Origin: Methanococcoides burtonii DSM 6242
GTDB taxonomy: Archaea > Halobacteriota > Methanosarcinia > Methanosarcinales > Methanosarcinaceae
Direction: 5' to 3'
Assembly: GCF_000013725.1 (NCBI RefSeq)
Contig: NC_007955.1
Span: 403,579 to 467,578, forward strand
Length of the DNA: 64,000 nt
Part shown: positions 14,191 to 26,694 of the stretch, piece after piece
Layout: the number at the start of each line of letters is the position of its first letter
Numbering within the stretch: position 1 is the first letter of the stretch
Program-made: the position numbers and the translations under genes
Notes under the pieces: generated by a model
What the model was told of the DNA's origin: nothing
What the model saw: the letters and a program-made list of their open reading frames with translations, nothing else
Databases searched by the model: none

Positions 14191-14246
14191 ACTAATAAAA
14201 AGGCAATGGATTAAAGGAGTTTCCGGTCTTACGGAAGTCCCCTTTA
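14191..14246 (-). terminator. Terminator of small membrane protein gene, copy A
   Basis: TAAAGGAGTTTCCG (14212-14225) pairs with CGGAAGTCCCCTTTA (14232-14246) around a 6-base loop. On the minus strand a T-rich stretch (CCTTTTTATTAG) follows. The stem lies directly after the stop codon of the leftward 55-residue gene, and an equivalent hairpin follows copy B. Confidence 0.75.
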
Positions 14247-14247
14247 C

Positions 14248-14415
14248 TTAGAAGAGGTTAGCATAAGATGAAAGTCTGAGGAAGGCCATCAGAGCAATGG
14301 ATACTGTAAGGATGGCAATGAATGCCCCATTTCCATCAATTTGAAGTCCTCTATTTGTCCATTCAAGAATACTGTCTTCTTCATCCATTGTAGAACCTGC
14401 GTAGTATGTGTCCAT
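14248..14415 (-). CDS. 55-residue single-span membrane protein, copy A
   Basis: A short leftward gene, ATG at 14415 and TAA at 14248, with a perfect ribosome-binding site AGGAGG seven to twelve bases upstream. The product starts MDTYYAGSTMDEEDSILEW, has a Gly/Asn turn DGNG at about 27-30, one membrane span (about 31-47) and a short tail RLSSYANLF. The acidic N-terminal half should face one side of the membrane. It is identical at 49 of 55 positions with copy B at 25936-26103. The gene has its own palindromic promoter and hairpin terminator, so it is a monocistronic unit. I do not recognise a family. Coding status is supported by conservation between copies, the ribosome-binding site and the terminator. 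Confidence 0.85.
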   Translation of the reverse strand: MDTYYAGSTMDEEDSILEWTNRGLQIDGNGAFIAILTVSIALMAFLRLSSYANLF

Positions 14416-14457
14416 TTCTTCTTTCCTCCTATTTTTATGGGCAATGAGTATCCATCA

Positions 14458-14493
14458 CGATTAATCATTGTGCAAATTTATAATGATTAATCG
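14458..14493 (-). promoter_or_regulatory. Palindromic operator around TATA box, copy A
   Basis: A perfect 12-bp inverted repeat, CGATTAATCATT at 14458-14469 and AATGATTAATCG at 14482-14493, separated by 12 bases. On the minus strand the spacer reads ATAAATTTGCAC, so a TATA box (TTATAAATT) is enclosed by the repeat, about 60 bases before the ATG at 14415. A dimeric repressor bound here would block TBP. The same arrangement and spacing occur in copy B. Confidence 0.7.
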
Positions 14494-14552
14494 TTTATTA
14501 ATGTTTCGGATTTAATAATGATGTGTAAGAAAAAGTGAGGTGAATGGAGTGT

Positions 14553-14624
14553 ATCAAGGTGTTTTCCATAAAAGAGATAGATGAAGAATATATCTTCAAG
14601 TTGCTCAAAGTAGTAAAAAAATAA
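14553..14624 (+). pseudogene. C-terminal remnant of a DUF1801-type gene
   Basis: About 24 codons reading IKVFSIKEIDEEYIFKLLKV and stopping at TAA 14622-14624. This matches the end of the broken DUF1801 gene at 26369-26694 almost residue for residue. No start or N-terminal part is present. The remnant follows copy A of the duplicated segment, in the same order as in copy B, so copy A appears to have lost most of this gene by deletion. Confidence 0.7.
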
Positions 14625-15075
14625 TGGACCAATATACTATATTCCCTGATAAGCCCAATAAAAGTATATGTGATCTCAGGCTCCTGCCTGACCTTAGGAC
14701 TGCATTTTGTTGGCAAGTCCAGGGGGATGTTGCTAGTACAATAAGCACAAGTAACCAGATGCGTCCCTCGACGATATTGTAATCATATAACAGGCGATGC
14801 CAGGAGTGGCCTATGACAAAATGTCCGAAGAGGAATTCAAAGGACATTGTCAGGCACAACCATATAAGGCCAACATAAATGAACTGCATCGATGTCCCCG
14901 AAACACCTGAATATTTCAGAAAAATATAGGTAATTATAAATATGACCGCACTGAAGTTCACCGAACTTATCTGGTGGGCAAGAATTTCACCCGTATAAGG
15001 TGCATAAAGCCCTCTTGATATACCATTTAATATGGCAGGTACTATGAAAAGCAACCAGAGCCCAAAGGAATACAA
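14605..15075 (-). CDS. Hypothetical membrane protein, possibly with an altered C-terminus
   Basis: A 156-residue hydrophobic protein with four clear membrane spans in the first 125 residues, including the conserved-looking segments GEILAHQISSV and YDYNIVEGRIWLLVLI. The rest (about residues 122-156, beginning near TCQQNAVLRSGRSLRS) is of different character and runs over the end of the DUF1801 remnant on the opposite strand. It may therefore be an accidental extension produced by the same deletion. The start is TTG at 15075, without a strong ribosome-binding site. No function is assigned. Confidence 0.55.
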   Translation of the reverse strand: MYSFGLWLLFIVPAILNGISRGLYAPYTGEILAHQISSVNFSAVIFIITYIFLKYSGVSGTSMQFIYVGLIWLCLTMSFEFLFGHFVIGHSWHRLLYDYNIVEGRIWLLVLIVLATSPWTCQQNAVLRSGRSLRSHILLLGLSGNIVYWSIIFLLL

Positions 15076-25879: not shown

Positions 25880-25935
25880 AATAAAAAGCCAATAAAGTAA
25901 AGGAGTTTCCGGGTCTTGCGGAAGGCTCCTTTACT
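25880..25935 (-). terminator. Terminator of small membrane protein gene, copy B
   Basis: AAGTAAAGGAG (25895-25905) pairs perfectly with CTCCTTTACTT (25926-25936), and the inner part TTTCCG / CGGAA extends the stem. The minus strand continues into GGCTTTTTATTAT. The hairpin begins at the stop codon of the leftward small gene. It could also terminate the rightward debranching-enzyme transcript. Confidence 0.78.
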
Positions 25936-26103
25936 TTAAAAGAGGTTAGCATAAGATGAAAGTCTGAGGAAGGCCATCAGAGCAATGGATACTGCAAGTG
26001 TGGCAATGAATGCCCCGTTGCCATCGATTTTAAGTCCTCTGTTTGTCCATTCAAGGATACCGTCTTCTTCATCCATTGTGGAACTTGCGTAGTATTTGTC
26101 CAT
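25936..26103 (-). CDS. 55-residue single-span membrane protein, copy B
   Basis: A leftward gene with ATG at 26103 and TAA at 25936, preceded by GGAGG. The product begins MDKYYASSTMDEEDGILEW and ends RLSSYANLF, with one membrane span at about 31-47. It differs from copy A (14248-14415) only at residues 3, 7, 15, 26, 35 and 37. Promoter palindrome, ribosome-binding site and terminator are conserved too. The gene sits immediately beyond the end of the glucan cluster, convergent with the debranching enzyme, while copy A sits before the cluster. No family is recognised and no function is claimed. Confidence 0.85.
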   Translation of the reverse strand: MDKYYASSTMDEEDGILEWTNRGLKIDGNGAFIATLAVSIALMAFLRLSSYANLF

Positions 26104-26145
26104 TTCTTCTTTCCTCCGATTTTGATAAGCAATCAGTGTGCATCA

Positions 26146-26181
26146 CGATTAATCATGATACATATCTATAATGATTAATCG
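26146..26181 (-). promoter_or_regulatory. Palindromic operator around TATA box, copy B
   Basis: CGATTAATCAT at 26146-26156 and AATGATTAATCG at 26170-26181 form the same inverted repeat as in copy A, with one mismatch at the inner edge. Between the arms the minus strand reads TATAGATATG, so the TATA-like element is again enclosed. The spacing to the ATG equals that in copy A. Confidence 0.7.
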
Positions 26182-26368
26182 TTTATTAATGTTTCGGAGT
26201 ACAGATGATGTATTAGAAAAAATGAGAGATGTGAGACATATTGGAATTATCAACCACTCAGATCGACCTGCAGTATCTTTCTACATTCCGAAATGCTCAG
26301 CTATATAATTCTTCATTCCAATCTTATATCCTGATCAAATGATCCTGATAACCGGGGACAAGGGAAGT

Positions 26369-26694
26369 ATGGATACAAAAGTTCAGGCATATATCAAAAA
26401 ACAAGAAACACCACAAAGAGAGATAGTTGAAGCATTAAGAGAAATGATCCTAACGTTTTTTCCTGATATTAAAGAAGAGCTCATAATGAGTGTTCCCTAG
26501 TATGAAGGAAAATATTATATTGTTGCTTTAAAAAACCATGTGAACCTGGGTTTTTCAATTGATGGTCTGACAGAAAATGAGAAGGGACTCTTCGATGCAC
26601 AGGAAAAACCATGAAGCATATCAAGGTATTTTCCCTGAATGAGATAGATGAAGATATGATCGTAAAGTTGCTTAAAGTAGTAAAGAAAGAATGA
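26369..26694 (+). pseudogene. DUF1801-type protein, broken by amber codon and frameshift
   Basis: From ATG at 26369 (GGGAAG upstream) the frame reads MDTKVQAYIKKQETPQREIV through PDIKEELIMSVP, reaches TAG at 26498-26500, and resumes YEGKYYIVALKNHVNLGFS. A one-base slip near 26600 then moves to the frame GKTMKHIKVFSLNEIDED, ending at TGA 26692-26694. Together these give a typical short DUF1801 (YdhG-like) protein, a family of unknown function. The TAG stands where relatives usually have an aromatic residue. Pyrrolysine readthrough is conceivable in this order, but the frameshift argues for decay. The end of the same gene recurs at 14553-14624. Confidence 0.75.

Follow-up and report, generated by a model that had tools for sequence, protein, structure and literature searches.

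What are the two nearly identical open reading frames of 55 codons in this part of the Methanococcoides burtonii chromosome: are they genes, and if so, what might their products do? Both lie in the window, by which we mean the whole stretch of 64,000 nucleotides that was analysed. We hypothesize that they belong to a new family of 55-residue proteins with a single membrane span, encoded in a switchable, dosage-amplified one-gene unit and acting on a membrane complex, a reading to which we give slightly less than even confidence.

Two window copies and a family under purifying selection

The two copies align as DNA almost without gaps and have in common the BRE/TATA, the palindrome, the GGAGG ribosome-binding site, the ORF and the 3' hairpin (Table 1). 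This common unit runs from about 14509 to about 14193 in copy 1 and from about 26197 to about 25880 in copy 2, and the sequence beyond it is largely dissimilar between the copies, aligning only at background level. The family alignment reproduced the identity of 49 of 55 residues (89%) reported in an earlier note on this DNA, which had described two copies without stating their strand; both are confirmed and both are on the minus strand, but the M. burtonii genome (a single contig of 2,575,032 bases) holds a third copy outside the window, at 2,457,176, which is 57% identical. The same note held these frames to be too short for ordinary gene finders. This was overstated: the usual minimum ORF length of common gene finders is below 165 nt, and the 165-nt ORF exceeds it.

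Table 1. Coordinates of the features of the two window copies, with the basis for each assignment
Feature	Copy	Positions	Strand	Basis
ORF, MDTYYAGSTMDEEDSILEWTNRGLQIDGNGAFIAILTVSIALMAFLRLSSYANLF	1	14248..14415	-	Family alignment, dN/dS
ORF, MDKYYASSTMDEEDGILEWTNRGLKIDGNGAFIATLAVSIALMAFLRLSSYANLF	2	25936..26103	-	Family alignment
GGAGG ribosome-binding site	1	14425..14429	-	Read from sequence; kept in most family copies
GGAGG ribosome-binding site	2	26113..26117	-	Read from sequence
Possible 5' leader hairpin (arm 2 + arm 3), uncertain	1	14442..14470	-	Folding, covariation
34-bp palindrome GATTAATCATT-N12-AATGATTAATC, putative operator across inferred transcription start	1	14459..14492	-	Alignment, element searches
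34-bp palindrome	2	26147..26180	-	Alignment, element searches
BRE/TATA core promoter (CCGAAACATTAATAAAC)	1	14493..14509	-	Sequence; kept in 30 copies
BRE/TATA core promoter	2	26181..26197	-	Sequence, alignment
3' hairpin then U-rich stretch	1	14193..14247	-	Pairing/covariation analysis
3' hairpin then U-rich stretch	2	25880..25937	-	Pairing/covariation analysis

The family totals 30 copies, distributed over all 11 Methanococcoides genomes and two of the eight genomes of a second genus, taken as Methanohalophilus. Every copy has exactly 55 codons with an ATG start and no in-frame stop. Conservation of the reading frame outside M. burtonii had been set beforehand as a test of the proposal, and the frame is intact in 12 other species-level genomes, with the nearest relatives in M. 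alaskense, M. seepicolus and M. vulcani. Profile searches of the order (186 genomes) and the class (238 genomes) yielded nothing above chance level outside the two genera, and the family is absent from the roughly 225 other genomes of the class, Methanococcoides and the second genus aside. Two weak profile matches were dismissed, as their positions were off-frame within a regulator-like gene. No relatives were found among the viral contigs, phages and plasmids searched, and a literature search by guessed locus tags returned nothing on family members.

Eight synonymous and six non-synonymous changes separate copy 1 from copy 2, giving a dN/dS of about 0.19 for the comparison that the earlier note had proposed as a check. 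Across the family, 13 of 15 comparisons fall between 0.10 and 0.41, and the two outlying values, 0.64 and 0.79, belong to very close pairs with one or two synonymous changes. Judged by these substitution patterns, the comparisons show that the 55-codon frame is under purifying selection and is a genuine gene. One could instead suppose that the conserved entity is the DNA or RNA itself, as a mobile cassette or a regulatory RNA, and that the frame is incidental; the promoter element is indeed more conserved than the ORF, the unit occurs at several loci, and in one genome (G037) it is flanked by an SMR transporter gene and an SMR remnant. However, the dN/dS values well below 1, the constant length and the lack of a single in-frame stop in 30 copies all argue for the protein, the alignments inspected reveal no terminal inverted repeats enclosing the unit, and we consider this explanation highly improbable.

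At larger distances, synonymous divergence within the family is 0.33-0.61, compared with 1.1-2.2 for gltX, msrA and mscS and 0.40-0.96 for the gene of ribosomal protein S3ae. The family thus stays below most of the genes in its neighborhood and comes closer to the ribosomal protein gene. Such low values fit a well-expressed gene or an extra constraint on the RNA. The final ~55 coding bases hold one difference between the window copies, but since most congeners also retain this 3' coding stretch, gene conversion need not be invoked to account for it.

Copy number in Methanococcoides genomes ranges from one to four. Tandem arrays of two to four copies each are present in four genomes (G017, G018, G019 and G020), and in the tree the diverged copies at the msrA locus form a separate group with full support. 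The arrangement of the copies shows that their number has grown by both tandem and dispersed duplication. This amplification, the strong BRE/TATA and GGAGG, and a synonymous divergence closer to that of the ribosomal protein gene would also suit an abundant structural or envelope-membrane component with no regulatory part, needed in bulk, whose added copies boost output. We regard this as rather unlikely: a single copy suffices in some species (G024 and G025), and the palindrome across the inferred transcription start hints at switching instead of a steady supply. In the array at G017:C6:22949-24368 (L042), four tandem copies repeat with a period of 418 bases and two of the protein products are identical, indicating a recent amplification.

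The promoter element and the RNA hairpins

Upstream of all 30 copies stands the consensus GAAACnTTAATAAAyGATTAATCATTATAgATrTGTGCAATGATTAATCGTGA or a close variant of it, in which the CGAAA and TTATAAA-like part is a normal archaeal BRE/TATA. The 38-bp element, made up of the BRE/TATA and then the 34-bp palindrome, was matched 29 times in 112 genomes when up to three mismatches were allowed (<=3), each time upstream of a family ORF and nowhere else, while the reversed element, searched as a control in the same 112 genomes, had no match. The thirtieth copy (G019, 1,117,199) carries the element minus one base. Across the whole M. burtonii genome the element occurs three times, once per family copy, against zero for the reversed control, and a regulon search of this genome with the palindrome returned the three family promoters only and no co-regulated gene. 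The private promoter with a palindrome that the earlier note had described for the two window copies is thus borne out across the family. Going by the usual distance from the TATA, transcription would start between the palindrome arms. The simplest reading is that the palindrome may be the binding site of a regulator that serves the family gene alone.

A ribosome-binding site, a promoter palindrome and a hairpin terminator had all been claimed as common to the two copies, and this holds for both in the window, but the 3' hairpin is not a trait of the whole family, being missing after eight of the 30 copies, mainly upstream members of tandem arrays. In the family alignment 86% of its cells are paired, compared with 40-62% when slid, 11 cells have changed on both sides, none of 500 shuffles reaches its covariation score, and RNAalifold predicts 11 pairs. 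A leader hairpin, formed by the second arm and a looser third arm, appears in many single folds and has 72% of cells paired against 19-56% slid; covariation is modest and RNAalifold predicted no structure on the leaders, so that the presence of this hairpin in the family is uncertain.

A predicted membrane protein and its possible action

For every copy, hydropathy over 19 residues gives values of 1.7-2.5 across about residues 28-49, indicating one membrane span, and the N-terminal side of the span carries a net charge of -4 to -7; the acidic N-terminal half and the predicted single span noticed earlier in the window copies extend to the entire family. The invariant residues include M10, E13, E18, W19, L24, D27, F32, S39, I40, R47 and Y51, of which R47 lies at the C-terminal end of the predicted span, and cysteine is absent from all 30 copies. 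By the positive-inside rule, applied to charge alone, the N-terminus is predicted to be outside and the C-terminus inside. An AlphaFold2 model (mean pLDDT 68.6) places helices at residues 9-23 and 28-54 and is confident for the span only, the N-terminal half being weak. The suggestion that no such family had been described agrees with our searches: neither window copy matched Pfam or NCBIfam at E<=10, PADLOC had no match for 16 family members, and the best hit of a PDB sequence search was an unrelated protein at E 1.1. Matches to PHROGs were weak, scattered and at chance level, the best (E 0.008) being to a group of unknown function.

Small hydrophobic proteins with one span raise the question of toxicity. 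Peptides of the Ldr/Ibs/TisB type are typically short, single-span, multi-copy, tandem and narrowly distributed, with private promoters. The family could likewise encode a hydrophobic peptide, similar to a type I toxin, that harms the membrane once derepressed and is otherwise restrained by a palindrome-bound repressor or an RNA; it is short, has a single span and its own promoter, forms tandem arrays of two to four copies and is distributed at the level of the genus. Yet Rfam, which would pick up known antitoxin RNAs, has no match in the window, PADLOC has none for the family, and the 3' flank, the expected site of an antisense promoter, is unconserved between the paralogues apart from the hairpin. 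Conservation also extends beyond the span to the acidic N-terminal half, and the gene is found in every Methanococcoides genome with a locus that is mostly stable, which is not what a typical addiction module shows. In other words, the family is like Ldr, Ibs, TisB and DinQ (for DinQ, PMC3567139) in being small, single-span, often multi-copy and narrow in distribution, but differs from them in its conserved acidic N-terminal half, its genus-wide presence and the lack of a known antisense RNA. We think a toxin quite unlikely.

We favor instead a small protein that acts on a membrane complex. Hypothetically, a dedicated regulator would bind the palindrome and block or position the transcription machinery, so that some condition would turn the family gene on or off as one unit. 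Once made, the small protein would insert into the membrane, the acidic helix facing outward and the C-terminus inward, and there the conserved span and the N-terminal helix might contact a membrane complex and alter its stability or activity, and the dose of the protein would be set by the number of gene copies. That the action proceeds through protein-protein contact is something we infer by analogy. Still more tentatively, it is possible that the family has a modulating effect on an energy or ion complex of the membrane and answers to a one-to-one regulator dedicated to it, the 34-bp operator being near-unchanged over duplications and across two genera.

Several known small proteins offer points of comparison. 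AcrZ, MgtS, KdpF and CydX are bacterial proteins of about 30-55 residues that have a single span and bind membrane complexes. The family resembles them in size and single span, although it is archaeal, has no sequence match to them and lacks a fixed neighbor. In Methanosarcina mazei, MtrI is a protein of 68 aa with four helices on the Mtr complex and a cysteine as cobalt ligand (PMC12774963), and MtrR, of 49 aa, binds Mtr and has neither a transmembrane domain nor aromatic residues (PMC13370731). Like MtrI, which acts on a membrane complex, the family is a stand-alone small protein of Methanosarcinales in a variable context (PMC12774963), whereas MtrI is soluble and helical with a cobalt-binding cysteine and the family has no cysteine, a predicted membrane span and no known tie to Mtr. 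The narrow distribution of the family recalls MtrR, which is genus-restricted, located at the membrane and transcriptionally regulated (PMC13370731), but the family has the invariant W19 and Y51, conserved Tyr/Phe and, again unlike MtrR, the predicted span. Few regulatory small membrane proteins are known from archaea, and the recent examples MtrI and MtrR touch methanogenesis itself. The present family is genus-wide in a methanogen genus and comes with a switch-like promoter that can serve as bait for its regulator and with natural copy-number variants. It lends itself well to further study.

Genomic neighborhood and candidate partners

A neighbor common to all copies was looked for across the family loci and none was found. 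The family gene adjoins msrA/msrB in most Methanococcoides; the burtonii clade has a diverged copy at that place and two canonical copies flanking the glycogen cluster; and in the second genus the gene has an SMR transporter gene on one side and argG on the other. Because the neighbors vary among copies, context does not allow a partner to be named, and because they are not conserved, the partner of the small protein is probably encoded elsewhere.

Some small proteins do serve one particular pump, as phospholamban and KdpF are small partners of theirs, and the family protein could be the dedicated partner of one neighbor, either the P-type cation ATPase by copy 1 or the SMR transporter. The ATPase gene follows copy 1 downstream and shares its strand, but this linkage is not constant, as it adjoins only one of the burtonii-clade copies. 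An SMR gene lies upstream on the same strand in one Methanococcoides clade (G000, G016, G021, G022 and G023) and in both second-genus members that carry the family (G032 and G037), and these SMRs are 72-78% identical across genera, compared with 63-69% when genomes bearing the small gene are set against the remaining members of the second genus. We treat this link, recurring in two genera, as a lead and not as evidence: every Methanococcoides has an SMR gene, and in the remaining species it is far from the family gene. Co-transcription with neighbors is not expected either, because each unit starts with a promoter of its own and most units end in a 3' hairpin. Altogether, a dedicated neighbor as partner seems decidedly unlikely, and action on a complex encoded elsewhere remains our preferred reading.

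Other features of the surrounding DNA deserve mention. A DUF1801-type gene beside copy 2 (26339-26640, plus strand) is interrupted by an in-frame TAG, and beside copy 1 there is an apparent C-terminal remnant of the same gene (14548-14620, plus strand), which suggests that both window copies derive from one duplicated block. In G037, the SMR remnant on the far side of the unit is a decayed SMR gene (L090:924-1004, L098:1504-1584), the intact SMR gene being on the other side. On the minus strand at 14605-15075, the window encodes a membrane protein of 132-156 residues without a Pfam match (cluster c0), and a gene of this cluster is found within a few kb of many Methanococcoides family copies. 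By the third M. burtonii copy, a Rieske-type gene (G000:C1:2458499-2458749) matches in two separate pieces; in congeners it matches as one piece.
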